This document shows positions 1,719 through 55,147 of a stretch of DNA of 64,000 nt, one piece after another; the stretch's first letter is position 1, and each line of letters starts with the position of its first letter. A model generated the notes under the pieces. It was not told the origin of the DNA and searched no databases. It saw only the letters and a program-made list of their open reading frames with translations. The translations under genes were made by a program, and so were the position numbers. Origin of the DNA: a virus; the IMG/VR virus record IMGVR_UViG_3300032050_000004, positions 62,001-126,000 of that record. One strand, 5' to 3'.

Positions 1719-2036
1719 ATGTCATTGGAAGTAAACACAACAAATTTTGAAGAAATTATAAAAAATAAAGAAGAGTTAGTTTTAGTTGATTTCTGGGCTC
1801 CTTGGTGTGGACCTTGCAAAATTATCGGCCCTTTTTTAGACGAATTATTAATTCAATTCGAAAATAATTTGATAGTAGCTAAAGTAAATGTAGATGAAAA
1901 TCCAGAATTAGCAGCTCAATTCGGAATAAGAAATATTCCAACTATACTTTTTTTCAAGAAAGGTGAAATAGTTGATAAAAGTGTTGGAGTTAGCAATAAA
2001 GCAAATTTGGAAAATAAAATAAATTCTTTAATTTAA
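1719..2036 (+). CDS. trxA: Thioredoxin
   Basis: 105 residues, the normal thioredoxin length. The redox motif W-C-G-P-C-K is at residues 29-34 (Cys30, Cys33), preceded by VLVDFWAPW and followed by the cis-proline region RNIPTILFF. It is a cytoplasmic thiol-disulfide reductant; a likely client here is the ribonucleotide reductase at 61080-63653, whose C-terminus carries the swinging-arm cysteines that thioredoxin reduces. It is the only plus-strand gene between 322 and 9890. It overlaps the convergent gene at 2033 by four bases. Confidence 0.95.
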   Translation: MSLEVNTTNFEEIIKNKEELVLVDFWAPWCGPCKIIGPFLDELLIQFENNLIVAKVNVDENPELAAQFGIRNIPTILFFKKGEIVDKSVGVSNKANLENKINSLI

Positions 2037-2491
2037 AATTTAGTAGCTTGCCAATTAACCAAGTTTCCTTTTAGATCCATTATAAATCTATTTACAAAAA
2101 TGTCTTGATTCATTTTGTCTTTATAGCCTACGTTAAAGACATATTCTTTTGCATCGCTCATATATCCTCCAAATCTAACGAATATATAATTTGAGTTTAT
2201 TTTATTATTTATTTGATTGTTTGCTACGATTGGTGGTGATATTTTAAAAAATAGGTTTTCTTGTTCAGTTTTATCTAATACCAATTGTTGGTTTAAATTA
2301 TTTTGAACAAATAATTCAATTTTTTTTAGAATATTATTTCCGAATCTTTTTTGAAGTCCTTGATAATCGTCTTCATATGCTTCTGGTGGAGCAACATATC
2401 CAGCTTCAGGATCACTTAAACCTGCCAACTCTTGAATTCTATTGACATTTTCTAAAATCTTATTAATTCTTTTTTTGACAGATAATTCCAT
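2033..2491 (-). CDS. Hypothetical protein with N-terminal head-targeting-like segment
   Basis: 152 residues, not recognised. The N-terminus (VKKRINKILENVNRIQELAG) is a basic amphipathic helix with the IQELAGL motif, resembling other proteins in this window (54434-55147, 49894-50328). A linker rich in Pro and Tyr follows, then a mixed alpha/beta domain. The promoter-like octamer TATTTATC (2495-2502, minus strand) ends only a few bases before the ATG. May be a virion or head-internal protein; that is inference from the shared N-terminus. Confidence 0.7.
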   Translation of the reverse strand: MELSVKKRINKILENVNRIQELAGLSDPEAGYVAPPEAYEDDYQGLQKRFGNNILKKIELFVQNNLNQQLVLDKTEQENLFFKISPPIVANNQINNKINSNYIFVRFGGYMSDAKEYVFNVGYKDKMNQDIFVNRFIMDLKGNLVNWQATKF

Positions 2492-2503: not shown

Positions 2504-3349
2504 TTATATTTTTGAAAAAAACTTCACATAGTTGATTTTAAAAATACTTTCATCATATTTTACACCATCTACATTTGGGTGATATCCGTTATTTAATATT
2601 ATTTTCATTATTACATCTTCCTTGTTAAAATAATCTAAAATTTCTTTTTTTTCAGTTTTGAATATCAAATAACCATCATAATAAAACTTTATAAAACTTT
2701 CAGTCCAATGTAAAGCAAAAGTTGTTGGTCTTTTAGTTGGGTTGTTTGGTATCGGATAAACTTTAGCTCCATAACTTTTTTTTGTGTTATTTTCTACAAA
2801 TCCATAGTGTATATTTGGTTCAAACTTAACAAAAGGTATTCCGAATTGATTACTATAATCTGATCTTTTTCCACTATATGCTTCAAGTATATCTATTTCT
2901 GGTGGCCATGATTTTACAGCTGTTAACCAAATAGCAGGCCACAATAATTTACCTAATGGAAGAATACAATTCATTTCATAGTATCCATATTTAAAGCTTT
3001 GATTCGATGTTACAAGACCTATTCCATAATTTATATTTATTTCATTTTTATCCGGTTCAATAAATTTTTTTGGCTTGTATCTAGTATAGAGATTTAAACA
3101 ATTTTCTTTCACATCAATAAATTCTGTCCCCTTTCCATAGTATTGATAAGGAAATGAAGGATGAAATTCACCCCACTCATGTCCTTCTGACCATTTATTA
3201 GAATCTAATTTATCGCCATCAAAAAAATCACTAAATACCAATCTGTATTTTAATACATCTTTTGGTTTTCTGTTACTTGGTTTTACACAGAATAAAAATC
3301 TTATAAAAGATTTTATCTGAAACCATTTATTTAAAAAATATTCATTCAT
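2504..3349 (-). CDS. Glycoside hydrolase family 16 (endo-beta-glucanase type)
   Basis: 281 residues. GH16 catalytic signature E-I-D-I-L-E at residues 151-156, with nucleophile Glu151, assisting Asp153 and acid/base Glu156 all present. The flanking WPAIWLTAVKSWPPEID and the earlier FSDFFDGDKLDSNKWSE match the jelly-roll fold of laminarinase/agarase-type enzymes. These cleave beta-1,3/1,4 glucans or galactans. There is no clear signal peptide; residues 14-22 are only weakly hydrophobic. It is followed six bases later by the beta-helix gene's stop codon on the same strand. Likely a depolymerase for host capsule or algal polysaccharide. Exact substrate cannot be read from sequence. Confidence 0.85.
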   Translation of the reverse strand: MNEYFLNKWFQIKSFIRFLFCVKPSNRKPKDVLKYRLVFSDFFDGDKLDSNKWSEGHEWGEFHPSFPYQYYGKGTEFIDVKENCLNLYTRYKPKKFIEPDKNEININYGIGLVTSNQSFKYGYYEMNCILPLGKLLWPAIWLTAVKSWPPEIDILEAYSGKRSDYSNQFGIPFVKFEPNIHYGFVENNTKKSYGAKVYPIPNNPTKRPTTFALHWTESFIKFYYDGYLIFKTEKKEILDYFNKEDVIMKIILNNGYHPNVDGVKYDESIFKINYVKFFSKI

Positions 3350-3354
3350 GAATT

Positions 3355-4755
3355 TTATCTTGGAATACCAATATAACTAAATCTATTAGAACCACAACCG
3401 GGTCCTCCACAATTCTGTACAGACGTGCCATTAAACCAAGTTGGAACAGTAGTAGTTGGAGTATTTGTAGTAAGAGGATTTTCATTGTACGTTAATATCC
3501 AACCAACATTATTAGCATTATTAAAGAATTTTCCATTTTTAGCAACCCAATAAGATACATGAGAAATTTCTGCTGTAACATAACCGGTAGTGGCACCTAT
3601 ATCTGCTAGTATAGATGCGTATTGTCCAAATACCTTATCAATAGTTATTAATCCACTATGTATTCTAATTTTAATAAATGCTTCGGAAGCTCCATTTGTA
3701 CATTCAAAATGAGTGTTTTTTACTGTAAAATCTTTTACAACAGTTGATCCTTGTCCATTAAAATCTATACCTGCCCTAACAGATGAACCTTCAATGATAC
3801 AATCTTCAACAACACATCCAGAAGCAGCTATTATGCCGAATGCCATATCACCAGAACCAAAATATCTACAACTTCTAAATGTGGTATGATTTGATTGAGA
3901 ATTGAAATTTGTAGAACCTGCCCAATTTCCTCTGTCTGCAATCCAACCAATATTACAATTCGTTGCGAAACAATTTTCAATTGTAGTTCTAAGGGCAAAT
4001 CTTAAATGAATACATTCTTTTAAAGATTCTCCAAGTATATTTTGATAATACGCACCATATGAAGGACCAATATCTATACCAATTTGATTTGATGTGCCTT
4101 TTAAAACTAAATTTCTGAAAGTGCATCTTAAATCGACCATGACATTTGCATCTCCATTATCATTTGGAGAAGGTCTATTTAATATCGGTAAAGATCCTGT
4201 AGAAACTAATTTGGAATAACCTCCATCTATTTCAAAATATTTAGAATATTTTTCAATTGTTAAAGATTTAGGACCTAAATAATAAATTCCACCTTTTGCT
4301 TTAACGGTTCCACCATTAGAAGTTGCTAATTTGATTGCCATTTGCCATGCTGCCCAATCAACATTATCTGATATTGTTGCATTAATTCCCGGATAGTTAC
4401 TGTTTATTGTTGATTGAGAAATTCCAAGTTGAGCAAATGTTAAATTTTGTCTTACTGCCCCAAACTGTTCAGGAGAATATTCAATTGCTGTTCCGTTTAT
4501 AGTTATATTAGTTTCTTGACCCTTGAAAAGAGAATCTTCTACCCACACTCCATTTCCAATATGTCTATGTTGTTTACCATTAATTGGGTTGATATTGTAG
4601 TAACCCATTTTTATTGTATTGGTACTACTAAAGGGATTGTAATTTAATTCTGTAGTATCGGACAATACTCGATACCAGTTTATCGCTCTTTGTGCTATAA
4701 CATTGTTAGAACACAAAATAATTGCGATCAAATAAAATAATTTTAATTTATGCAT
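3355..4755 (-). CDS. Exported right-handed beta-helix protein (pectate-lyase-like fold)
   Basis: 466 residues. Signal peptide at residues 1-22 (hydrophobic core, end NNVIAQ). From about residue 120 the pattern DNVDWAAWQMAIKLATSNGG-TVKAKGGIYYLG is the start of the pectate-lyase-type beta-helix found in phage tailspikes and polysaccharide lyases. It is followed by repeating short strands (FRNLVLKG, VVEDCIIEGSS, VVKDFTVKNTHFEC). Such proteins bind or cut polysaccharides. A signal peptide is unusual for a tailspike, so it may be secreted instead. Overlaps the upstream gene by 13 bases. Confidence 0.75.
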   Translation of the reverse strand: MHKLKLFYLIAIILCSNNVIAQRAINWYRVLSDTTELNYNPFSSTNTIKMGYYNINPINGKQHRHIGNGVWVEDSLFKGQETNITINGTAIEYSPEQFGAVRQNLTFAQLGISQSTINSNYPGINATISDNVDWAAWQMAIKLATSNGGTVKAKGGIYYLGPKSLTIEKYSKYFEIDGGYSKLVSTGSLPILNRPSPNDNGDANVMVDLRCTFRNLVLKGTSNQIGIDIGPSYGAYYQNILGESLKECIHLRFALRTTIENCFATNCNIGWIADRGNWAGSTNFNSQSNHTTFRSCRYFGSGDMAFGIIAASGCVVEDCIIEGSSVRAGIDFNGQGSTVVKDFTVKNTHFECTNGASEAFIKIRIHSGLITIDKVFGQYASILADIGATTGYVTAEISHVSYWVAKNGKFFNNANNVGWILTYNENPLTTNTPTTTVPTWFNGTSVQNCGGPGCGSNRFSYIGIPR

Positions 4756-5291
4756 ATTTTTTCAAACTTTAATGTTTCATCATTCTTTAAAAGTCTTATA
4801 AAATAAATTCCTTTACTAAAATTTACTAAATTGACAGTAGTGTTTATGTTTATAAGTTGATTTGTCAAAATTAATTTATTGCAGGAATCATAAATTTCAT
4901 ACTGAACTTTTTCTTCATCACTGTAATTGTAGATATTGAATAGACCTGAACTTGGGTTTGGAAAAATACTGAATTCTTTATCTTTAATTTTTGGTACCAA
5001 CCAATAATCATATTCGGTAGGATCTGAAATTATTTTTCCATTTTTTTCAAAGGTGTATCCAAAAACTACATAATGACTTTGTGTACTATCGAAAAAAATG
5101 TTATTGTTATAAAAAGACAATTTCCACAATATATTTCCATTCTGATCAGTTCTTATTATATCGTATTCATTGGTTTTGTGATAGTTTAAACTATAATCAA
5201 AACCAATATCCAACCCTAAGACTTCTTGAGAATGACAAATGCTAGTTTTTAAAACTAGCATGAAAATAATTGAAATAAAATATTTTATCAT
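4743..5291 (-). CDS. Exported protein with T9SS type A sorting domain
   Basis: 182 residues. Signal peptide at residues 1-21 (ends CHSQ). Residues about 105-182 form a Por-secretion-tail (T9SS type A) domain: FSIFPNPSSGLFNI, then YEIYDSCNKLIL, NLVNFSKGIYFIRLL and the Lys-rich end. In Bacteroidetes this domain directs a protein from the periplasm across the outer membrane through the type IX system. The middle part is short and unrecognised. The octamer TATTTATT lies seven bases before the ATG (5299-5306). Either acquired from a host or used to place a phage product on the host surface. Confidence 0.8.
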   Translation of the reverse strand: MIKYFISIIFMLVLKTSICHSQEVLGLDIGFDYSLNYHKTNEYDIIRTDQNGNILWKLSFYNNNIFFDSTQSHYVVFGYTFEKNGKIISDPTEYDYWLVPKIKDKEFSIFPNPSSGLFNIYNYSDEEKVQYEIYDSCNKLILTNQLININTTVNLVNFSKGIYFIRLLKNDETLKFEKICIN

Positions 5292-5395
5292 ACTTTAAAA
5301 TAAATATCTTGTTTTTTGCTTAAAAAAACAACTTTTTTGTTTTTAAACCATAAAACATTGACATTCACTTATAAAAAATATTTATTTACCCAAAG

Positions 5396-6535
5396 TTAAT
5401 TTGATAATTCGCCTTTAATAGTTTGGTGACATATGTAATTTTCAATAATAAAATCTTCTATTTTCAAAGAATTAATAAATTGATCAAAATTGTTTTCTTT
5501 TTGAGTGAAGCCTATCCAATCATTATCTTTAATTTTTAAATTGCACAATTCATATGGTTGTCTTGTAATTTGTTCTTTAGCTTGATCAATATGATTTAAA
5601 TATAAATGAGTATCACCAAGATTGGCTATAAGTTTTTTTGGAACCATATCAAAAACTTGAGCTAAAATATTTAACAACAAACCATATGATGCCAAATTAA
5701 ATGGAAGGCCCAAGAAAGTATCTACTGATCTTTGATTCCAAAGCAAAGAAATTTCCCTTGATTTAACATTTGTATACTCATCTAGATAAATATGTTTTTC
5801 TTCATCACTTTTTTTATTGAACTCTTCTAAAACCTGTTCTTCTATTGTTGATGATTTATTCCAAATATTTATTCTTTTTTTTAAATCAATTTTTTGAGTA
5901 TATATTTGAAAGGAATAATGACATGGTGGTAGAACCATATTTTGAATATCTGATATATTCCAAGAATTGACAATCATTCTCCTGTCATCAGGATTATCTT
6001 CTAATTGAGTAAATATTTTTTTTATCTGATCTATTTCAAACTCCTGATAAATTTCAGTGACAGATCCTTGTTCGTTTATCTTTAATAATTTTTCAATTGA
6101 AGTCCATCTTCTCCATTGTTTACCATACACTGGTCCCAAATCTCCAAATTCATTTAAAAAATTTTGATTATTTTTTAATCTGTTTACAAATTCTTCTTTT
6201 GTCAATTTTATATCTACTTCATCCTTAACAAAAGGAACTTTATTATCAAATATTTTACAATAATTTTTATACAAATCACCATTCCATATGTTGCAATTAT
6301 TATCGATTAAAAACTTTACATTAGTATTTCCTCTTAAAAACCAAAGAAGCTCAGTAACTACTCCCTTAAAAAACATTTTTTTGGTTGTTAAAAGAGGAAA
6401 ACCTTCTGACATATCATGGATTAATTGTTTTCCAAAAACTGAAATTGTTCCAGTACCGGTTCTATCCATTTTAATAGTACCGTCATTTAAAATTTCACTT
6501 AAAAGATTTTGATAATTTTTATCTAAACTATTCAT
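5396..6535 (-). CDS. thyA: Thymidylate synthase (folate-dependent)
   Basis: 379 residues, longer than the usual 264-300. It methylates dUMP to dTMP using methylene-tetrahydrofolate. Visible motifs: the N-terminal DRTGTGT Arg, LLWFLRGNTN, GDLGPVYGKQWR, phosphate-binding DDRR, catalytic Cys205 in VLPPCHYSFQ, QRSVDTFLGLPFN and GDTHLYLNH. Extra length comes from two insertions, about residues 92-128 and 216-256, both Lys/Glu/Asn-rich. It overlaps the downstream end of the 6528-7640 gene by eight bases. A paralogue lacking the catalytic residues lies at 8145-9146. Confidence 0.95.
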   Translation of the reverse strand: MNSLDKNYQNLLSEILNDGTIKMDRTGTGTISVFGKQLIHDMSEGFPLLTTKKMFFKGVVTELLWFLRGNTNVKFLIDNNCNIWNGDLYKNYCKIFDNKVPFVKDEVDIKLTKEEFVNRLKNNQNFLNEFGDLGPVYGKQWRRWTSIEKLLKINEQGSVTEIYQEFEIDQIKKIFTQLEDNPDDRRMIVNSWNISDIQNMVLPPCHYSFQIYTQKIDLKKRINIWNKSSTIEEQVLEEFNKKSDEEKHIYLDEYTNVKSREISLLWNQRSVDTFLGLPFNLASYGLLLNILAQVFDMVPKKLIANLGDTHLYLNHIDQAKEQITRQPYELCNLKIKDNDWIGFTQKENNFDQFINSLKIEDFIIENYICHQTIKGELSN

Positions 6536-7640
6536 AATTCTTTTTTATTATTCCATTATCATAGTATATAAATTTCAGACCTTGATAATTTTTATCTACT
6601 TCTTGTCCCAAATAATTTAACACTTTAATTATTTTTGACTCTTTTAGGTAATTGTTTACTGCAATAATTGGATACTCTTTGAAAATTCCATTAAAATCAA
6701 CTTGTTTTAATTTATAATAAATCACATCTTGTTTTGAATTTATATTTTCATCGTAAATTGAATAATTAATTATTCTATTAGAATTTCCGCTACCCTCAAC
6801 CACCCCCAGTTCTTCAAAACTAAAAGCATCATATGATTTGTAAATAATAAAGTAATCATTGTTAGTTTCAGATGCTGTTGACCATAAAATTTTTATTTTA
6901 TCTATTTCTTTCTCGGCTTCAAAATTTAATAATTCTACTGGCAAAACAATTGACAAATCAACTATTTCAACATCGTCCAACATAAATGTTTCACCAGAGG
7001 CATTTATTCGTGTTACAAATCTTATTCTTAATTGTGTTGCATTAGAAAATGGAACTGTTACCAATACATTCACTATTGGATTACCAGCGTTACTGATATA
7101 AATAGTTGGTGTAGTTGTAGAGGTTGATCCCAATCTACTTATTGTTAATTTAGCATTTGTTCCTATAGCACCATCAAAGCTCCACATTGAATTGTTAATT
7201 CCTTGAATTTGTGCATCCCTCCACCAACTAAGACCATTATTTAGGGTGTATTGTAACTCTATCCAATCAGTTTGATCTACTCCTGCTGCAATTTGGGTTG
7301 AATAATTTATTCCAAAAGACGCTAATTTAAATCTAATTTGATATTGATGTCCGGATATTAAGGGAACATTTGGAAAAATTAATGTATCTATCTCGATTGT
7401 TGAACTTCCAAGTCCTGTACCGAATACTGTGTAGCAACTATCGAATGAAAAATATTTAGGATAATTAGGAGGATTATCGTTTGGAGATGATAATCCACCT
7501 GTAAATAAAGAATTTATCAATACTGTAGAAACACCCCTCCATGTAGAGGGATTTTCCATATTATCAATTTTAATTACAGTTTGGGAACATAGATTTAATG
7601 AATAAAATAATGATACAATTAAACAAATAAATAATTTCAT
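6528..7640 (-). CDS. Exported protein with T9SS-type C-terminus
   Basis: 370 residues. Signal peptide at residues 1-19 (ends LCSQ). Residues 25-230 look like a beta-sandwich or adhesin-type domain with a GETFMLDDVEIVD end, typical of carbohydrate-binding jelly rolls. Residues 232-320 are the LPVELLNFEAE ... ILWSTASETNNDYF module common before T9SS tails in flavobacterial secreted proteins. The end (KVLNYLGQEVDKNYQGLKF) matches a short T9SS type A tail that finishes GIIKK. No catalytic motif seen. The host-like architecture suggests host origin. Possible roles are host-surface masking or adhesion. Confidence 0.75.
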   Translation of the reverse strand: MKLFICLIVSLFYSLNLCSQTVIKIDNMENPSTWRGVSTVLINSLFTGGLSSPNDNPPNYPKYFSFDSCYTVFGTGLGSSTIEIDTLIFPNVPLISGHQYQIRFKLASFGINYSTQIAAGVDQTDWIELQYTLNNGLSWWRDAQIQGINNSMWSFDGAIGTNAKLTISRLGSTSTTTPTIYISNAGNPIVNVLVTVPFSNATQLRIRFVTRINASGETFMLDDVEIVDLSIVLPVELLNFEAEKEIDKIKILWSTASETNNDYFIIYKSYDAFSFEELGVVEGSGNSNRIINYSIYDENINSKQDVIYYKLKQVDFNGIFKEYPIIAVNNYLKESKIIKVLNYLGQEVDKNYQGLKFIYYDNGIIKKNYE

Positions 7641-8144: not shown

Positions 8145-9146
8145 TTAATTTATTTTGAAATCTTCTAATTCTAAAGTCAATGAATCAAAATTTTTTCTTT
8201 TAATATCTATTTTGTAATTATTCTTAACTTTTTTGGACATTTTTTTATTTAACTTATAAGTTGAATTAATGATAATGTTATTTGGAATCATCTTAAATAA
8301 ACTTGATACATACTTAATCATAAAAACGTTAAATAATATCTTCTTTTCTAAATCTATGTTATCTTCAATAACATTATAATCAGCAATTAAATTCACTTTA
8401 TATTTAGGAACATAAACAATTTCTTCATACCAATTAACTGCATCTAGATCGTTATTTTTCCTGAAATTTTCTAGAAGAATTTCATACTCCATACCGGTTT
8501 CATAATAGTTTTGAAGAAACCATTTTACCCTATCCTCAAAATTAATTTCTTCACAAAATATTTTAATATATAATAAATTATTTTTTATTAATCTATCATC
8601 GAAATTATTTAGATTATAGAAATTTAATACATGAAACCCTCCAACAGGATCAGTTGCTAAAGAATTAATAATTTGTTTGAACTGGTCTTTACCTTTTTTT
8701 GAAATTGTTCCTTTGTCTTCACTGTCAAAATTAATTTCTATCCCCCAATTTCTAAATTCTATAGAATCGCTCATACCAAAATCACCCCAAATATTTGAAA
8801 ATTCTGGATCTGTTTTGATTTTAGCTAAAAATTCTAATTGTGTAAATTTTTCGAGTTGTTTCCAATTACTAAACCAGCCATGAAAAAATTCAGATTCTTC
8901 AATTATATCACTAAGTTCATAGTGTTTTATTAGACTATCTATTTCGATACAATATTTCTTATATAAAATATCGATGAAACCATGATGGTTATTTTCTAAT
9001 AGATACTTTGAATTATTAGTTCCATTGAAAAACCAAATAAACTCAACTAAATTTTCTCTAACTTCACGATACTCTAGCGATAATTCTAACGGTTCAGAAC
9101 AGTTTATTTTTTTACGAAAATTAAGTTCTTTATTATTTTTAGACAT
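8145..9146 (-). CDS. Thymidylate-synthase-like protein lacking catalytic residues
   Basis: 333 residues. It aligns by eye along its length with the thyA product at 5396-6535. VRENLVEFIWFFNGTNNSKYL matches VVTELLWFLRGNTNVKFL; FSNIWGDFG matches FLNEFGDLG; VLNFYNLNNF matches IVNSWNISDI; IKYVSSLFKMIPNNIIIN matches LNILAQVFDMVPKKLIAN. In a gapless stretch the catalytic Cys is replaced by Asn190 and the phosphate-binding Arg pair by Gly-Phe; the LPPC loop, QRS and GDTH motifs are also gone. It shares the first thyA insertion, so it likely arose by duplication in a phage lineage. Probably not a synthase: perhaps a regulatory partner or inhibitor. Overlaps the next gene's stop by one base. Confidence 0.75.
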   Translation of the reverse strand: MSKNNKELNFRKKINCSEPLELSLEYREVRENLVEFIWFFNGTNNSKYLLENNHHGFIDILYKKYCIEIDSLIKHYELSDIIEESEFFHGWFSNWKQLEKFTQLEFLAKIKTDPEFSNIWGDFGMSDSIEFRNWGIEINFDSEDKGTISKKGKDQFKQIINSLATDPVGGFHVLNFYNLNNFDDRLIKNNLLYIKIFCEEINFEDRVKWFLQNYYETGMEYEILLENFRKNNDLDAVNWYEEIVYVPKYKVNLIADYNVIEDNIDLEKKILFNVFMIKYVSSLFKMIPNNIIINSTYKLNKKMSKKVKNNYKIDIKRKNFDSLTLELEDFKIN

Positions 9147-13215: not shown

Positions 13216-13449
13216 ATGGATAGTCAAGATAATACATCGATGTCTGAACTTAACAATCTTGTAAATATGATTGTAGACTATTATTGTTTTAAAAATAATA
13301 TTTTTGACGACGATCAAGAAGAAGATGAGAAGTGGAAAAAAGGTACAAAGTATGATGAATCTAACGATGAAATAATACCTAATAAAATTGATACACTTAT
13401 CGAAAAAGTATTTGTCCATCAGTTAAATAAGTTTTCTAAAGATAAATGA
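13216..13449 (+). CDS. Acidic hypothetical protein
   Basis: 77 residues with an acidic centre (DDDQEEDEKW). TATTTATA at 13198-13205 precedes the ATG by about ten bases. ATGA overlap with the next gene shows coupling. Not recognised. Confidence 0.65.
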   Translation: MDSQDNTSMSELNNLVNMIVDYYCFKNNIFDDDQEEDEKWKKGTKYDESNDEIIPNKIDTLIEKVFVHQLNKFSKDK

Positions 13450-13721
13450 AAATTACAAAAGAGGAATTAAGAAAATTAATTTATGAGCAATTTTTTAATA
13501 CTTTGAATGAAGATTCAAGGTCGCATAAGGTTTCTATAGATGAACCTGTTTTAAAAATTAATGAAAATCTTAATGAAAGTTTTGATATAATTGAAGATCA
13601 AAATTTAATTAAGGATTCGGAGACAAAAATTCAAGAACTCAAAAGTATAAACGAGGAAATAAAAAGAATGAAACAACTAGTTGATTTTAGAAGTCCTCTT
13701 TTGTCTGATAATAATTTGTAA
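13446..13721 (+). CDS. Small protein with head-targeting-like N-terminus
   Basis: 91 residues. Starts MKITKEELRKLIYEQFF, a basic amphipathic helix ending in hydrophobic-hydrophobic-x-Glu (L-I-Y-E), the pattern cut by T4-type prohead proteases. Further on are EIKRMKQLVDF, similar to the RM-x-x-LAGL element of other proteins here, and repeats of N-E-(N/S). Coupled to the preceding gene by ATGA. Probably a head-internal or core protein by inference. Confidence 0.7.
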   Translation: MKITKEELRKLIYEQFFNTLNEDSRSHKVSIDEPVLKINENLNESFDIIEDQNLIKDSETKIQELKSINEEIKRMKQLVDFRSPLLSDNNL

Positions 13722-17947: not shown

Positions 17948-18046
17948 TGGTGTCAGGAGGTGGAATTGAACCGTGACTTTCGTCACTCCGTAAGGACCCG
18001 ACTCATGGTTTTTCACGCCATTGCTCTACCTCTGAGCTATCCTGAC
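17948..18046 (-). tRNA. tRNA-Phe (GAA) with a 23-base insertion in the T-stem
   Basis: Read on the minus strand: acceptor GTCAGGA pairs with TCCTGAC, discriminator A, encoded CCA (17950-17948), D-arm TAGCTC ... GAGC. The anticodon arm is ATGGC-GTGAAAA-ACCAT, giving anticodon GAA with U33 and A37. The T-loop is TTCAATT with 3-prime stem strand CCACC. The 5-prime T-stem strand is broken: GGT, then 23 bases (17973-17995) holding the hairpin GTGAC-GAAA-GTCAC, then GG. Removing the 23 bases restores a perfect GGTGG/CCACC stem and a normal length. One C-A mismatch closes the anticodon loop. A decayed or unusual long-variable-arm tRNA is the alternative. Confidence 0.75.
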
Positions 18047-31443: not shown

Positions 31444-31953
31444 TTATCTCAAATTATTTTGAACATATGAAAGAGCTGTTTTAGTCCTTGTATTAGTAGG
31501 ATCCATCATATTTTTGTGACCTTTAGGACGATTATCTTTGCTAGATTGATTTTTTGATTTATGACTGTTAAGTTGATGTTTAACCCAACTATATCCTGCA
31601 TCACCACCCCATAAATTCCATTTTTGTATTATTCCAGAATTATAAATATTTTTTCCAGCTATTTTTTCTTGTTTTAAATTTTCTATATTGTTATCGAAAA
31701 AAGCTTTCATTCTTTTTAATTGACCATGATTCATGGAATCCCCCTTCATAATTGAATACGCTTTTTTCAACCCACTACCTTCTGCCTCTCCTTTTCCAGT
31801 CAATTTATTTTTTGAAACGGCCTCAATTGCATTTTTACAAGTTTTTTTCATTGCATCATTAGGAAAAAAAGATTTATTATCATACTGAAACCTATAATCT
31901 TCAGATATAATTTCTCTTATTTTTTTTCTTAATAAATTAATTACTATTTCCAT
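31444..31953 (-). CDS. Conserved-looking phage protein with head-targeting-like N-terminus
   Basis: 169 residues. Starts with a basic helix NLLRKKIREIISEDYRF containing the I-I-S-E site. The middle (GSGLKKAYSIMKGDSMNHGQ, LKRMKAFFDNN, WNLWGGDAGYSWVKHQL) matches a pattern I recall from other phage hypotheticals. Shares one base with the next gene. Probably a virion or head protein. Confidence 0.65.
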   Translation of the reverse strand: MEIVINLLRKKIREIISEDYRFQYDNKSFFPNDAMKKTCKNAIEAVSKNKLTGKGEAEGSGLKKAYSIMKGDSMNHGQLKRMKAFFDNNIENLKQEKIAGKNIYNSGIIQKWNLWGGDAGYSWVKHQLNSHKSKNQSSKDNRPKGHKNMMDPTNTRTKTALSYVQNNLR

Positions 31954-38439: not shown

Positions 38440-38946
38440 ATGAAAATATCACATTCTGAATTAGTTCAAATCATAAAGGAAGAAGTAGATAGATACAAAA
38501 AGATCAAACTTCTTGAAAATAAAAAAGCTCAGATTCTTCGTCAATTAAATGAAATGAAAGTTTGTCAAGAATGCGGTTCTAAATACGAAGAGTCCATGGA
38601 AGAGAACATGGAAGAGGGTTCAGATAAAATGGTTGATGAGATTTTATCTAAGCTTTTAGGAAAGAAAAGTCCAGAAGAAAAAAAGGCTGAAATGAAATCT
38701 TTTATTGAGGGTCATCCAACTTATAGTCAAGTTTCAGAGGATATAGCTGAAAAATTCAAAAAAGACGAAAAACACATCATGGATAAATTAGTAGATTTCT
38801 TTGTAAAAGAAGGTACTTTAACTGATGGTGGCAAGAAAATAGCTGGTATAAAAGCATTTGTTTATGATCCTAAAGCGGACGCATTTGTAAACAAAACAAA
38901 AGTTAGTGTTCCTTATGGTCCTTCTTCTGGTACTGGAGAAATATAA
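38440..38946 (+). CDS. Protein with head-targeting-like N-terminus
   Basis: 168 residues. Starts MKISHSELVQIIKEEVDRYK (I-I-K-E site), then a helix to CQECGSKYEE, a possible half zinc site. Next comes an acidic Met-rich stretch, and a C-terminal winged-helix-like region (HPTYSQVSEDIAEKFKKDEK). Ends with VPYGPSSGTGE. Followed by a strong terminator. Probably a late head protein. Confidence 0.7.
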   Translation: MKISHSELVQIIKEEVDRYKKIKLLENKKAQILRQLNEMKVCQECGSKYEESMEENMEEGSDKMVDEILSKLLGKKSPEEKKAEMKSFIEGHPTYSQVSEDIAEKFKKDEKHIMDKLVDFFVKEGTLTDGGKKIAGIKAFVYDPKADAFVNKTKVSVPYGPSSGTGEI

Positions 38947-39873: not shown

Positions 39874-40479
39874 ATGAAGTTAAAGAAATTGATTCACGAA
39901 CATGACTGTAATTGTGGGAATTGTAGTTCAAAGAGTAAACCAGAAGGGGCACACTATAAAACCAAATTACATCAAATAATTCAGAATACTTTTCTTATAA
40001 ATGAAATAATATCAGATTTTGATGAACTTCCTTCTTGGATACAAGATAAAATAACAATTGCTGATCATAATATGGAGGCAATAATTGATTATTTAGAAAC
40101 TAAATTGGAAATGAATTATAGTTATGAGCAATTAAAGGATAATCCAAATTTTTTAAATGTTGTAGATGTTGATGCGACTCATATGATTAATGAAGCTGAA
40201 TATAGGGGAAGAAAAGTCAATTTGGGAAAGCCATTTAGAACTCCGAGTGGACCTAAGAAATTTTCTGTTTATGTAAAAAACAAATCAGGAAATATTGTAA
40301 AAGTAAATTTCGGGGATCCGAACTTAAGAATTAAAAATGCTGATCCAAAAAGAGCTAAATCATTTAGGGCTCGACATAAATGCGATCAGAAAAAAGATAG
40401 AACTACTCCGGGTTATTGGAGTTGTAATGTTGCTAGATATAGAAAAGCACTTGGTTTAACTTCATCTAGAACATGGTAA
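39874..40479 (+). CDS. Conserved phage protein with Cys motifs and head-targeting-like start
   Basis: 201 residues. Starts MKLKKLIHEHDCNCGNCSSK: an L-I-H-E site, then a Cys cluster. The C-terminal half (GKPFRTPSGPKKFSVYVKNK, then VKVNFGDPNLRIKN, FRARHKCDQ, PGYWSCNVARY) is a pattern I recognise from proteins of large T4-like phages, with two conserved Cys and basic residues. Probably a virion component. TATTTATT is 13 bases before the ATG. Confidence 0.7.
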   Translation: MKLKKLIHEHDCNCGNCSSKSKPEGAHYKTKLHQIIQNTFLINEIISDFDELPSWIQDKITIADHNMEAIIDYLETKLEMNYSYEQLKDNPNFLNVVDVDATHMINEAEYRGRKVNLGKPFRTPSGPKKFSVYVKNKSGNIVKVNFGDPNLRIKNADPKRAKSFRARHKCDQKKDRTTPGYWSCNVARYRKALGLTSSRTW

Positions 40480-40483
40480 AAAA

Positions 40484-40491
40484 TATTTATA
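40484..40491 (+). promoter_or_regulatory. Late-type promoter octamer of the lysis operon
   Basis: TATTTATA 21 bases before the endolysin ATG at 40513; the three genes 40513-42398 follow closely. Confidence 0.55.
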
Positions 40492-40512
40492 AATAATTTT
40501 AAAACAAACATT

Positions 40513-41109
40513 ATGAAAACAGACAAACTTAAAGGACACATACCAGATTCGGTATTAGGACAATTACCAGATGTAATTGCAAAATTTGAATTAAACACAC
40601 CATTGAGATTAGCACATTTTTTAGCACAATGTGGACATGAATCAGGTGGATTTAAATTGGTTCAAGAAAATTTAAACTATTCTGCACAAGGATTACAAAA
40701 CATCTTTGGAAAATATTTCCCCGGAAATCTTGAAGAGTCTTATGCAAGACAACCTCAGAAAATTGCCAGTAGAGTTTATGCAAACAGAATGGGAAATGGT
40801 GATGAATCTTCTGGTGAAGGTTATAAATTTCGTGGCAGAGGTTATATTCAATTAACAGGAAAAGATAATTACAAATCTTTCTCTGCTGCAATAAATGAAG
40901 ATTGTGTAGGAAATCCTGATTTAGTTGCAACGAAGTACCCTTTAGCTTCTGCAGCGTGGTTTTTCCACAAGAACGGAATACACAAAATTGCTGACGGTGG
41001 AGCCACTGATGCGGTAGTCACATCAGTAACAAAAAGAGTTAATGGTGGCACTATAGGTTTGCCAGATAGAATCAAACATTTTAAAGAATATTATTCATTA
41101 TTAGCCTAA
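40513..41109 (+). CDS. GH19 endolysin (chitinase/muramidase type)
   Basis: 198 residues. GH19 hallmarks: LAHFLAQCGHESGGFKLVQE with catalytic Glu in HESGG, LNYSAQGLQNIFGKYFP, YANRMGNGDESSGEGYKFRG, RGYIQLTGKDNY and AAWFF. Phage GH19 proteins cut peptidoglycan glycan strands for lysis. No signal peptide, so export depends on a holin. First of a compact lysis operon; the amidase follows ten bases later. Confidence 0.9.
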   Translation: MKTDKLKGHIPDSVLGQLPDVIAKFELNTPLRLAHFLAQCGHESGGFKLVQENLNYSAQGLQNIFGKYFPGNLEESYARQPQKIASRVYANRMGNGDESSGEGYKFRGRGYIQLTGKDNYKSFSAAINEDCVGNPDLVATKYPLASAAWFFHKNGIHKIADGGATDAVVTSVTKRVNGGTIGLPDRIKHFKEYYSLLA

Positions 41110-41118
41110 TAAAAACGT

Positions 41119-41796
41119 ATGAACACACTAAATTTACAAACAGACATTCAGAAATATAATTTCGCATCTAATCAATATTTAGCTGAAGAACATCCTAAAA
41201 AACAAATATATATTCACCACACTGCTGGTAATTCAAATGGTATAAACGTTTTTAAAGATTGGGAATCTAATCCAGAAAAAATTGCAACTTGTGTTACAAT
41301 TTGTGGAAAAGCTAAAAACAATGAATTTAAAGATGGACAGATAGTTCAGGGTTTTAGTTCAAAGCATTGGGCTTATCATTTGGGTTTAAAAGAATCCACA
41401 TTTCAAAATTTCAACTTACCATATAAATCATTAGATAAAATATCTATTGGTATTGAAGTTTGTAATTGGGGACAATTAACTTTTAAAAATGGTAAATATT
41501 ATACTTATGTAAATACAACTGTACCTGCAACTGAAGTGGTAGAACTTGAAACTCCCCATAGAGGTTTTAAATTTTATCATGCTTACACTGATGCTCAGAT
41601 AATATCAATAGAAAAATTAATAAGATATTGGGGCGGTCTATATTCAATTCCTATTAGTTATAATTCTGATATTTGGGATGTAAATAAAAGAGCCCTAAAT
41701 GGAGATGCTGGTGTATTTACACACAATAGTGTTAGATATGACAAGGTAGATGTGTCGCCTCAACCTAAATTAATTCAAATGCTGAAAACTTTATGA
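41119..41796 (+). CDS. N-acetylmuramoyl-L-alanine amidase endolysin
   Basis: 225 residues, amidase_2 type. YIHHTAGNSNG gives the first zinc His, then GFSSKHWAYHLGL, ISIGIEVCNWG, and a late FTHNSVRYDKVDVSP with the second zinc His and the Lys/Asp site. It cleaves the amide bond between muramic acid and L-Ala. It overlaps the secreted nuclease gene by four bases (ATGA). Confidence 0.88.
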   Translation: MNTLNLQTDIQKYNFASNQYLAEEHPKKQIYIHHTAGNSNGINVFKDWESNPEKIATCVTICGKAKNNEFKDGQIVQGFSSKHWAYHLGLKESTFQNFNLPYKSLDKISIGIEVCNWGQLTFKNGKYYTYVNTTVPATEVVELETPHRGFKFYHAYTDAQIISIEKLIRYWGGLYSIPISYNSDIWDVNKRALNGDAGVFTHNSVRYDKVDVSPQPKLIQMLKTL

Positions 41797-42398
41797 AAAA
41801 ATTATATATTTTTTTTGCAACTCTTTTATTTGTTTTTTTTTCTACACTTACCTCTTATTCACAAAAAAATTCTATAAGAATAGTTAAAGAAAACTATACT
41901 TGTTATTTTGACACTGTTTTAAAACAGCCATTAGTTGTAGTTTATAAACTATATAAAGGTGGAGGAGATTGTTCAAGAGCAGGTTTTAGTTTTAAAAATG
42001 ATCTATCAAACGTAAAAACAGCAACTCAGGCAGATTATGCCAGATCTGGTTATGACAGAGGACATTTAGCTAATGCGGAGGATTTTGCTTATGACTGTAA
42101 ATTGGATGAATTAACTTTTAGATATTACAACTGTCTTCCTCAATCTAAAATATTGAATAGGGGACTTTGGAAACAAAAGGAAGAAGAATCAAGAAAACTT
42201 AGTCAGTTAGATACTATTACAGTTGTTTGTTTTGGTCGTGAATTTTTCAGAGACGAAAGACTGAATGTACCAAAATATTGCGGTAAAATAGTCAAGGAAA
42301 AAAATGGTAAAATTCATTTTTGGTTATTTGATCAAAATGGAACTTTATTACCTGAGAATAAAAATATTCTAAAAGAATATTCTATATACTTGAATTGA
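41793..42398 (+). CDS. Secreted DNA/RNA non-specific endonuclease
   Basis: 201 residues. Signal peptide at residues 1-24 (MKKLYIF, hydrophobic core, ending SYSQ). The beta-beta-alpha metal motif is Asp88-Arg-Gly-His91 in YDRGHLANAEDF, and the metal-binding Asn region is NCLPQSKILNRGLW. This is the NucA/EndA-type fold, degrading DNA and RNA. Four Cys may form disulfides. Co-translated with the amidase, so it is made at lysis and sent to the periplasm. It could digest host nucleic acid released at lysis or DNA entering from rivals. Confidence 0.88.
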   Translation: MKKLYIFFATLLFVFFSTLTSYSQKNSIRIVKENYTCYFDTVLKQPLVVVYKLYKGGGDCSRAGFSFKNDLSNVKTATQADYARSGYDRGHLANAEDFAYDCKLDELTFRYYNCLPQSKILNRGLWKQKEEESRKLSQLDTITVVCFGREFFRDERLNVPKYCGKIVKEKNGKIHFWLFDQNGTLLPENKNILKEYSIYLN

Positions 42399-42407
42399 TT
42401 TTTACTA

Positions 42408-42415
42408 TATTTATA
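42408..42415 (+). promoter_or_regulatory. Late-type promoter octamer TATTTATA
   Basis: TATTTATA 34 bases before the ATG at 42450. The spacer holds a small inverted repeat (AAAGAA ... TTCTTT). Confidence 0.5.
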
Positions 42416-42449
42416 AAGAAGAATTACATTCTTTATAAAAATTAGTATT

Positions 42450-43091
42450 ATGGAATCAGTGCCTTATTTTGAAGAATCAAATAATGAATTCTTTATTAGA
42501 ACATTCAAAAAGTATACACCTTCAGGGGAATTTAAATGGCATTTTGACGACGAGAATAGAAAAATTATTCCTATTTCTGGACATAATTGGAAAATTCAAA
42601 TTGATGAGTCTTTACCTGAAGAATTGATTATTGGGAAAGAATATTTCATACCTGTAGACGTTTATCACAGAATAATAAAAGGTGATGGAGATCTAGAATT
42701 AAAACTATTTAAACTGGATAGTAAAAAAGGAGATCAGCCTAAATATGTAAGAAAATACAATGATAATCCGAAAATTTCAGATTATCTTATGTATCATTTA
42801 CAAAATGAAATACCCTTGAATGAAAATGTTTTTAGATATGCATCTGAAGCTTGGTGCGATTTAATTCAGGAAGCGAAAAGTCTTTATGAAGAAGGAATTT
42901 TAGATTTTTCTGAAGAGGAACTTGAAATCATAAATGAGGATACTGGTAAGATAAAAATTGTTGATGGCGAAAGGTTTATTTTGAATACACCTTTTATCAA
43001 TACAAATAAAGATATTGATAAAAAATATTTTGTTTATATTTGTGAAGACAACAATAAAATAGAAAAAATTTATTTTGATGATGGAGAATAA
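42450..43091 (+). CDS. Cupin-like conserved phage protein
   Basis: 213 residues. Residues 10-85 (FIRTFKKYTPSGEFKWHFDD, ISGHNWKIQIDESLPEELII, YFIPVDVYHRIIKG) follow a cupin-like beta pattern seen in small phage proteins (W-H ... YHR-x-I-K-G), possibly metal binding. The C-terminal half is acidic and helical. Function unknown. Confidence 0.65.
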   Translation: MESVPYFEESNNEFFIRTFKKYTPSGEFKWHFDDENRKIIPISGHNWKIQIDESLPEELIIGKEYFIPVDVYHRIIKGDGDLELKLFKLDSKKGDQPKYVRKYNDNPKISDYLMYHLQNEIPLNENVFRYASEAWCDLIQEAKSLYEEGILDFSEEELEIINEDTGKIKIVDGERFILNTPFINTNKDIDKKYFVYICEDNNKIEKIYFDDGE

Positions 43092-44210: not shown

Positions 44211-45104
44211 TAATTTTTTAATAAAATGGCTGAGATTATACCATTTTGCGGTAGCCTTTGAGAGTATTATCCTTTTCGAGGTTCCCTCTTTTATCCACGG
44301 ACCTTTCGATCAACGTAGCCACCAGTCTCAGTCTTTAGACTCCTTTCGGAATCTTGACCAACATTCTCGTCAGAGCTGTTCTGCAACCTAGTAACACCAG
44401 ATAGGATGGCCGTCCCACCACGATGCTTTGAGTCACAAAGTGAAACAGATCTTGCGAACCTGCCTCACACTCAGTTATCATTGCTGACCTGAGCCTTAGA
44501 GACCTTTTGCTCTTGACGCTGGGAGTCTTGGGCTGTGATTTAAATTTTCATATTTAAATGACATGATCCACGAATTTATGAAAGATGTGCTCCCAGAGTA
44601 GATCCGTTCCTTTTGAGAACGAAATACTACACACCTTTCTGTCAGCTTTGCGGTGCCAACGGCCAGATGAAACCAACTCCCACAACTCAACTCGTGTTAC
44701 CGAGTAAAATTATAAGTCTTAGCCAACCTTGCTGGTTAAAGCACTTCCCCTTCGCATGAGGTCGTACTTTATGAGTTTCATACATTTCTGCATTACGCCC
44801 AACCCTGTCATTTCTATCAGTCGGTTGCCCAACCAATCCGTTTAACAGGAAAAACCCTGAGATGTTTCTATTGTACCTCTCGATACTCAACCACACATTC
44901 GTTTATGTGATACAGCCTACTGACCTGCCCGGTTTTTCAACTGCGAACTCTCATTGTTTGGATGTCCTCCCTAACTTTAGGAAGGCGGAACTTGCGGATG
45001 GGTTTTACCCCAAAGGATCATGTGCAAGTATCCTTTTATACTCCGTCACCGGAGTTTATCTTATGGATGCCAAACCACCCAATTTCTTAATCAAAGAACG
45101 ATTT
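44211..45104 (-). ncRNA. Giant structured RNA, unit B (downstream copy)
   Basis: About 0.9 kb with markedly higher GC than the flanks, short ORFs in all frames only, and many local inverted repeats (for example ACTCCGG-TGA-CGGAGT at 45030s-45050s). It begins with boxA-like CGTTCTTTGA (45091-45100) then AAGAAATT-GGGTG. Blocks shared with unit A in the same order: GATAAAC-x-CCGG (to 45029), AGAGCAAAAGGTCTCTAA (44496-44513), GCAGAACAGCTCTGACGA (44367-44384), ACTGAGACTG (44322-44331) and ATGGT-x-TAATCTCA-x-CC (44228-44244). Size and setting resemble phage GOLLD/ROOL-class RNAs, but family membership is untested. Confidence 0.75.
45091..45100 (-). promoter_or_regulatory. boxA-like antitermination element, unit B
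   Basis: CGTTCTTTGA on the minus strand, identical to elements at 46054 and 46301 and like bacterial rRNA boxA (NusB/S10 site). Confidence 0.55.
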
Positions 45105-53169: not shown

Positions 53170-53481
53170 ATGAAAAAAAATACTTTAAGAAATATAATTA
53201 AAGATTTAATAAATGAAAATTTTCAGAACTTGAAAGTTATCAAAGCAACTCAAGTAGGGTTAGATCATTTAAATCGTTTCAAGATTTATTTGTCTGATGG
53301 TTCTGTTGATTATGTTGAAAAGAAAAATGCGATTGTAACAAACTCTAATCAATCGGATTACAAATGTTCCAATATATCCGGTATAATACAAAGTGAATCA
53401 AATTTTACCTATAGTTTCATAGGTGTCAATTGTGATGGTTATACTTGGATAGATGTTAAATCATTAAAAGTGGTAAATTAA
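53170..53481 (+). CDS. Small protein with head-targeting-like N-terminus
   Basis: 103 residues. MKKNTLRNIIKDLINENFQN with the L-I-N-E site, then a compact beta domain (FKIYLSDGSVDYVEKKNAIV; SFIGVNCDGYTWIDVKSLKV). TATTTATG ends ten bases before the ATG. Overlaps the converging nuclease gene by four bases. Confidence 0.65.
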   Translation: MKKNTLRNIIKDLINENFQNLKVIKATQVGLDHLNRFKIYLSDGSVDYVEKKNAIVTNSNQSDYKCSNISGIIQSESNFTYSFIGVNCDGYTWIDVKSLKVVN

Positions 53482-54433: not shown

Positions 54434-55147
54434 ATGATACTATCAGAATCATATAAAAGACGATTAAAAAAACTCGCAGGTTTAATTACTGAAGAGTTAT
54501 ATGATTTTTCTGATGAAGAGAGAACTATAGCTTATAAAGATTTTGATAAAAGAGTTCCATTCTCAAAGGATTTGATGGCTAAGGCGATAAGAGAAGGTTG
54601 GGAAGTTGGAATATCTTTTAAAAGTGATAATGATAAATATAAAATGCCAATAGCTAAAACCAGAGTAATTTATCCAGTAGCTATGGGGTTGTCAAAAAAA
54701 GGAAATCTAGTAATTAGAGCATTTCATAAAATAGGTCAGTCTGAGAGTGGGGCTATGACTGCTCAAAAAATTGGAATGAAAAATTATAGAAGCACAGAAG
54801 TTAAAGATGAATGGAGGTTATTTAAAGCTACTAACATCAAAAACATGTGGCTCACAGGAGATTTTTTCAAATTAGAGAATGTATCAGGTTATAAAGAAAC
54901 TGGTGATAAAGGGATGACAGTTGTTGAAATTCAGGCTAAAAAAAGTCAAGTATCTAAATTTCAAAAAGATTATTATAGCAACATAAAAAAGTCTGCTGAA
55001 AAACAACCTTCTACTGTAATTGTGAAAAACAAACCATTTGAGAAAGTAGCTAAAGAACCAGTTCAGCAGGTTACTCAAACTAGAGTAAAATCTCCTGTAA
55101 ATAATCAAGGAGATTTAAATAACCAACAAGATAATCAACAGAAGTGA
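54434..55147 (+). CDS. Protein with LAGLITEE start, probably head-associated
   Basis: 237 residues. Begins MILSESYKRRLKKLAGLITE, combining the RM/R-x-K-LAGL element with an L-I-T-E cleavage-like site. The middle (VGISFKSDNDKYKMPIAKTR, VIYPVAMGLSKKGNLVIRAF, HKIGQSESGAM) is beta-rich and resembles a WYL- or SH3-like domain seen in similar phage proteins. The tail is Gln/Asn-rich. TATTTATT ends eight bases before the ATG. Confidence 0.65.
   Translation: MILSESYKRRLKKLAGLITEELYDFSDEERTIAYKDFDKRVPFSKDLMAKAIREGWEVGISFKSDNDKYKMPIAKTRVIYPVAMGLSKKGNLVIRAFHKIGQSESGAMTAQKIGMKNYRSTEVKDEWRLFKATNIKNMWLTGDFFKLENVSGYKETGDKGMTVVEIQAKKSQVSKFQKDYYSNIKKSAEKQPSTVIVKNKPFEKVAKEPVQQVTQTRVKSPVNNQGDLNNQQDNQQK

Follow-up and report, generated by a model that had tools for sequence, protein, structure and literature searches.

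Predicted export of T4-like phage proteins through the type IX secretion system of the host, with a short C-terminal tail as a candidate reduced sorting signal

Organization of the cargo locus

The window analysed here is a 64-kb stretch of DNA that corresponds to positions 62001-126000 in a virus record of 222,069 bases. Family searches of the record identified a T4-type major head protein, tail sheath, tail tube, and head-tail connector; therefore, judged by its gene content, the record is a genuine T4-like phage genome. A family search of the phage found no defence or counter-defence families. Two genes of the window, g093 and g095 (gene numbers follow a purpose-made list of open reading frames of the record), encode the proteins at the centre of this study. 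The original prediction placed them at 4743-5291 and 6528-7640, and both open reading frames exist on the minus strand with exactly these ends. The features of the window that bear on these genes are the following.

2504-3349, minus strand: GH16-like protein (PF00722), with relatives in the huge phages LR756502 and LR745206
3355-4755, minus strand: secreted protein without a sorting domain, recognised from its open reading frame and sequence; its start overlaps the end of g093 by 13 nucleotides
4743-5291, minus strand: g093, open reading frame of a predicted secreted protein of 182 residues with a type A sorting domain of the type IX secretion system (T9SS) (TIGR04183, PF18962)
4746-4967, minus strand: type A sorting domain of g093, residues 109-182 (TIGR04183, PF18962; structure model with PDB hits 8glk_D and 8qb1_A)
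5226-5291, minus strand: predicted Sec-type signal peptide of g093, residues 1-22 (MIKYFISIIFMLVLKTSICHSQ; a helix in the model)
5300-5307, minus strand: late-promoter-like motif ATATTTAT at -16 of g093, a positional motif found upstream of many virion genes
5396-6535, minus strand: thymidylate synthase (PF00303), whose start overlaps the g095 stop by 8 nucleotides
6528-7640, minus strand: g095, open reading frame of a 370-residue secreted protein with a short C-terminal tail
6531-6635, minus strand: short tail of g095, residues 336-370, a candidate reduced T9SS sorting signal (from alignment, tail classes, and family distribution)
6651-6944, minus strand: LPVELLNF...YYKLKQVDFNG module of g095, residues 233-330, conserved with bacterial secreted proteins and well modelled
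7581-7640, minus strand: Sec-type signal peptide of g095, residues 1-20 (MKLFICLIVSLFYSLNLCSQ)
41793-42398, plus strand: secreted DNA/RNA non-specific nuclease (PF01223) without a sorting domain

The secreted protein encoded at 3355-4755 has no family match in NCBIfam or Pfam and, judged by eye, has the look of a beta-helix. Roughly 100 residues are inserted within the thymidylate synthase, and upstream of its gene, at 8145-9146 on the minus strand, a second, divergent ThyA-like protein is encoded. The window also contains a GOLLD RNA at 44227-44639 on the minus strand (RF02032, 176.7 bits), which sits in a stretch of raised G+C, and an Rfam tRNA match at 17951-18046 on the minus strand (35.9 bits), which is not reported by ARAGORN. 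Elsewhere in the record, two adjacent tail-sheath-like genes (208406-210766 and 210820-213459) have near-identical N-terminal starts and C-terminal ends.

g093 combines a predicted Sec signal with a type A sorting domain

The N-terminus of g093 has the character of a Bacteroidota-type Sec signal, as judged by eye and from hydropathy, and residues 2-24 form a helix in the structure model. The type A domain sits at the very C-terminus, where residues 109-181/182 exceed both curated cut-offs, with 44.9 bits against TIGR04183 (cut-off 23) and 46.4 bits against PF18962 (cut-off 27). As a sequence match, the agreement with TIGR04183 is far above chance, because the same model finds nothing in 38 viral contigs that share thyA. 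The model of g093 has a confident C-terminal beta-sandwich with an Ig-like seven-strand fold, and its confidence is high over the sorting domain. For the modelled domain, the best Foldseek hits are the substrate domain of NucA as bound in the T9SS translocon (8glk_D, with a TM score of 0.87 by target length) and the sorting domain of mirolase (8qb1_A). Because known sorting domains were part of the alignment behind the model, the fold and sequence matches are not independent of each other, and the former is a sign of compatibility with a T9SS sorting domain rather than independent proof. Relatives of g093 were found neither in the phages nor in the viral contigs searched. Neither g093 nor g095 contains an enzymatic domain recognised by NCBIfam or Pfam, and their G+C contents of 0.24 and 0.29, respectively, are phage-like rather than unusual.

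The short tail of g095 is a candidate sorting signal

The Sec signal of g095, read from the sequence, is convincing. The structure model covers the module region, and the N-terminal 233 residues lie outside it and carry no fold claim. The LPVELLNF...YYKLKQVDFNG module in the C-terminal half of g095 is common in secreted proteins of Bacteroidota. The tail that follows it matches neither TIGR04183 or PF18962 nor any other T9SS sorting-domain model in NCBIfam or Pfam, those for type B and type C included. By eye, it resembles motifs D and E of type A domains. The possibility that the tail is a piece of a type A domain was examined by profile-profile comparison with hhalign, which returned a negligible probability of 2.4%, and such homology is therefore unsupported.

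Among the best 80 bacterial loci with the module, 66 post-module tails are long (85-110 residues, the type A class) versus 15 that are short (45-66 residues, like that of g095). In Bacteroidota, the short tail thus stands where this module otherwise carries the type A domain. Bacterial short-tail proteins with a complete 5' end start with Sec-type signals, and a scan of seven of them gave no match to any T9SS model. A model built for the tail detects it in 61 of 100 genomes from the GTDB family of a Fluviicola MAG, as opposed to 5 of 395 in a sample of the phylum. The numbers become 56/95 and 4/394 when genomes that contributed to the model are left out, together with, in the phylum sample, the Fluviicola MAG itself. 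The co-occurrence of SprA was considered as a further test of the short tail; SprA is present in all 12 short-tail genomes, but also in 304 of the 395 genomes of the phylum sample, and a base rate of 77% makes the test too weak. In HBP35, the final 22 residues of the sorting domain, comprising motifs D and E, are enough for secretion (PMC10202324), and therefore the short tail is worth taking seriously.

By its sequence, the short tail is a candidate sorting signal and not an established one. A tentative interpretation, somewhat short of an even chance, treats the tail of approximately 35 residues (IxxxxNxLGQEVxxxYxGxxFxxYxDGxxxK) as a reduced T9SS signal that has so far escaped recognition and serves mainly one family of Flavobacteriales. 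On this interpretation, the phages of that family would have taken over the dialect specific to their hosts and would use it to put proteins of their own, together with a secreted metzincin, on the surface of the infected cell. If the tail were a sorting signal, many proteins of a single bacterial family that are unannotated at present would count as surface proteins. The original prediction had assigned Sec signals and Por-type tails to both phage proteins, as an address for the host T9SS. Both N-termini have the appearance of Sec signals, and the type A domain bears out the prediction for g093, whose T9SS targeting is well supported; the tail of g095 is recurrent but differs from the Por-type domain named there and matches no T9SS model, which leaves its targeting plausible but indirect.

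Further cargo genes and a probable host

A profile search of the record detected a second type A domain in g062 (record positions 40106-42514). The 802-residue g062 protein consists of a reprolysin-like metzincin domain with the sequence HExxHxxGxxH and a Met-turn, PKD-like repeats, and PF18962. The product of g197 (record positions 160557-161963) ends in the same short tail as g095. Both genes belong to the same phage and lie outside the window. Genes g194-g197 form an insertion that is absent from the syntenic relative. None of the four cargo genes g093, g095, g062, and g197 is located within the tail or head gene clusters, and none of the cargo domains points directly at phage receptors.

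Over 31.6 kb, a contig of the Fluviicola MAG (JAJTEO01) matches the phage at 99.96-100% identity, except for two short stretches that it lacks. Relative to the record, this Fluviicola-binned copy is without 170 bases at 38664-38833 and 101 bases at 41971-42071, the second of which breaks the reading frame of g062; the gaps are either real deletions or assembly artefacts. The host is most likely a Bacteroidota bacterium of freshwater lakes, of the Fluviicola/Crocinitomicaceae type; both the co-binning and the shared tail dialect point this way, but neither amounts to proof. SprA is present in the Fluviicola MAG, whose link to the phage as a host rests on the co-binning.

Timing of expression

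The motif [CA]TATTTAT is clustered 10-42 nucleotides before start codons and precedes many virion genes, and because of this distribution it is probably a late promoter. It is found before g093 and is absent before g095, g062, and g197. The overlap of g095 with the thymidylate synthase gene suggests that g095 is expressed with the nucleotide-metabolism genes, and thus earlier. The Bacteroidota promoter TTTG/TAnnTTTG shows no excess in the window.

Across the whole record, approximately 30 phage proteins begin with one or the other of two recurrent N-terminal peptides, of the SEIxRMxELAGI or LRxLIKExIxxxLxE type. Examples in the window are the following.

2033-2491, minus strand: protein with a shared N-terminal peptide
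13446-13721, plus strand: protein with a shared N-terminal peptide
31444-31953, minus strand: protein with a shared N-terminal peptide
53170-53481, plus strand: protein with a shared N-terminal peptide
54434-55147, plus strand: protein with a shared N-terminal peptide

The late-type motif is located upstream of 23 of the 30 proteins (Fisher P = 1.6e-10). The peptides resemble the head-targeting peptides of T4. If they were of the head-targeting type, they would mark an unusually large set of packaged and injected proteins.

Cargo genes in other phages

Profile searches found type A domains above the cut-off in five huge phages, LR756502, LR745206, LR756500, LR756504, and LR756501, with genomes of 462-735 kb, LR756501 being the 735-kb one. 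The combination of a signal peptide and a type A domain also occurs in the cultivated Flavobacterium phage immuto. No type A domains were found in the three phages of Microcystis, Synechococcus, and Enterobacter, in LR756508, or, with the same model, among the 38 viral contigs chosen through thyA. LR756502, LR745206, LR756500, and LR756504 were chosen with the g095 secreted protein as the query, and the prevalence of the trait is not measured by them; LR756501 was selected through the GH16-like gene, and immuto, LR756508, and the three phages of hosts other than Bacteroidota through the tail sheath. Because none of the 38 thyA-chosen contigs has the domain, the trait is, as far as these sequences indicate, patchy among phages. 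A tblastn search of phages with a consensus sorting-domain query gave no match and was discarded as too weak, given that profile searches of this collection do detect such domains. PHROGs includes no sorting-domain family.

In LR756502 and LR745206, a gene encoding a signal peptide and a sorting domain is located between a DnaJ-like gene (67% identical) and a gene of unknown function (42%). The cargo proteins at this shared locus are only 31% identical, yet both have kept the signal and the sorting domain, which among the sequences compared is the strongest evidence of retention. A relative of the g062 metzincin with a sorting-domain match below the cut-off (20.8 bits) is encoded on a short viral contig, separated by one gene from a major head gene. 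A 2518-residue open reading frame of another viral contig (L025:2943-10496) contains a region related to the g062 metzincin, and proteases of this type therefore also occur in a giant phage protein that is possibly structural. A short-tail gene of LR745206.1 (L013:3676-5366) appears to be split over two frames, with the signal and PKD part in one and the module and tail in the other; either the phage itself carries a frameshift or the assembly is in error.

The nearest syntenic relative of the phage is without the short-tail gene g197, and its contig leaves the region of g062, g093, and g095 uncovered. Searches with thyA and a ParB-like gene for closer relatives covering the cargo cluster gave only distant ones. 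The disruption of these genes in all relatives had been named as grounds against the original prediction, and this does not hold: the five huge phages and immuto contain intact genes with signal and sorting domain. The thyA-related contigs are devoid of them, and one short-tail gene, that of LR745206, looks frameshifted.

Proposed route of export and its possible purpose

It is very probable, from sequence matches and the structure model, that at least g093 and the metzincin g062 are exported through the host T9SS. The phage proteins are predicted to carry both addresses of the host's secretion route: a Sec signal, which directs them across the inner membrane, and a C-terminal T9SS sorting domain, which directs them across the outer one. 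During infection, they would cross the inner membrane via Sec and the outer membrane via the host SprA-PorV translocon, and would be anchored on the cell or released from it before lysis. Proteins with type A domains are either anchored statically on the surface or released (PMC12618676). Given the sorting tags, viral proteins are probably displayed on the outer face of the infected cell.

The gld and spr mutants of F. columnare are resistant to phage (PMC9233685); therefore, surface proteins that pass through the T9SS matter for phage entry. The favoured purpose of the cargo, put forward with limited confidence, is a remodelling of the infected cell's surface that lowers superinfection: adhesin-like beta proteins may mask the surface and the protease may trim surface proteins, so that competing phages would adsorb less well. 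The original prediction had listed altered adhesion or gliding and protection from predation as further possible effects. Nearly as likely, although a doubtful reading in itself, is the exploitation of matrix and debris, in which a secreted protease, nuclease, and glycan-acting proteins, located on the dying host or set free from it, would degrade matrix, polysaccharide, and debris and thereby aid the escape of progeny or feed the infected cell. Such a role is suggested by the sorting domain on the metzincin g062, the conservation of the secreted nuclease (86% identity to its counterpart in the syntenic relative), the GH16-like neighbour with relatives in two huge phages, the late-type motif before g093, and the endoglucanase and GH39 enzyme among the Cryophage cargo (PMC7468147). 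It fits less well with g093 and g095, which have no recognised enzymatic domain, with the overlap of g095 and thymidylate synthase that suggests earlier expression, and with the GH16-like protein and the nuclease, neither of which has a sorting domain.

It is improbable that the genes are instead passengers, captured recently from hosts and decaying after horizontal transfer with no role in infection. g093 does resemble a truncated passenger joined to a sorting domain, the g194-g197 insertion is missing from the syntenic relative, the thyA-matched contigs have no cargo, and the split gene of LR745206 could be read as decay; however, the open reading frames of g093 and g095 are intact with phage-like G+C, the architecture recurs in five huge phages and immuto, and two huge phages that have diverged from each other still share one cargo locus, where both addresses are retained. 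Less probable again is a decoy, in which the cargo would compete for PorV and SprA and slow the export of host adhesins or receptors. Slowed export would also cut superinfection, given that loss of the T9SS makes F. columnare phage-resistant (PMC9233685), but a simple clogging decoy is weakened by the probable excess or recycling of PorV and by the finding that the system still copes with type A fusions when they are overproduced (PMC12618676). Furthermore, a decoy would not need a protease as passenger. Ig-like domains are common on phage particles, and the late-type motif of g093, the beta-helix-like neighbour at 3355-4755, and the related metzincins in a giant open reading frame and near a head gene are compatible with fibre or decoration proteins that borrowed an Ig-like module for the virion, but this is very improbable, as Sec-type signals would remove the proteins from the cytoplasm where particles assemble, the domain keeps T9SS-specific sequence features and has T9SS substrates as its nearest solved structures, g095, g062, and g197 lack the late-type motif, and no cargo gene lies in the tail or head clusters.

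Comparison with known systems

The use of the T9SS by phages was described in the original prediction as little known, and this agrees with the literature, in which two papers were found (PMC7468147 and PMC6949934). Phage T9SS cargo is thus already known from reports of 2019 and 2020, and the phage studied here is a further example, which adds a short-tail variant not recognised before. The following features were not found described in the open-access literature, a scope that makes this weak evidence of novelty: the metzincin as cargo, the retention in synteny in huge phages, the occurrence in a cultivated phage, and the family-specific short tail. The distribution indicates that the host type IX route is a recurrent strategy of Bacteroidota phages, including those with the largest genomes and a cultivated one, and not a single curiosity.

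The closest precedent is Cryophage, which encodes type A sorting domains and for which superinfection exclusion has already been proposed (Bellas et al. 2020, PMC7468147). Both are Bacteroidetes phages with type A cargo, and the idea that host secretion is hijacked is the same. Cryophage is circular with a 76-kb genome and three variable cargo genes (endoglucanase, GH39, and PA14), whereas the phage described here is T4-like with 222 kb. Unlike in Cryophage, the cargo comprises proteins without recognised enzymatic domains, a metzincin, and an extra short tail, and related cargo occurs at a conserved locus of huge phages. Open reading frames with sorting domains are also present in genomes of the crAss-like cluster 2 (PMC6949934), likewise predicted to infect Bacteroidetes; there, the sorting domains are associated with BACON domains, and both phage type and cargo differ from those reported here. 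The sorting domains of NucA (8glk) and mirolase (8qb1) share the sequence family and predicted fold of the g093 domain, but are cellular, whereas g093 is phage-encoded. Protein immuto35A_15 (QQO91933.1) of Flavobacterium phage vB_FspM_immuto, a phage with a related tail sheath, has a signal peptide and a type A domain (47.1 bits); its passenger is cohesin-like, and it is annotated only as 'cohesin domain-containing protein'. Unlike the phage studied here, immuto has a cultivated host, and with both partners, phage and Flavobacterium, amenable to culture, the role of the cargo during infection is directly testable.
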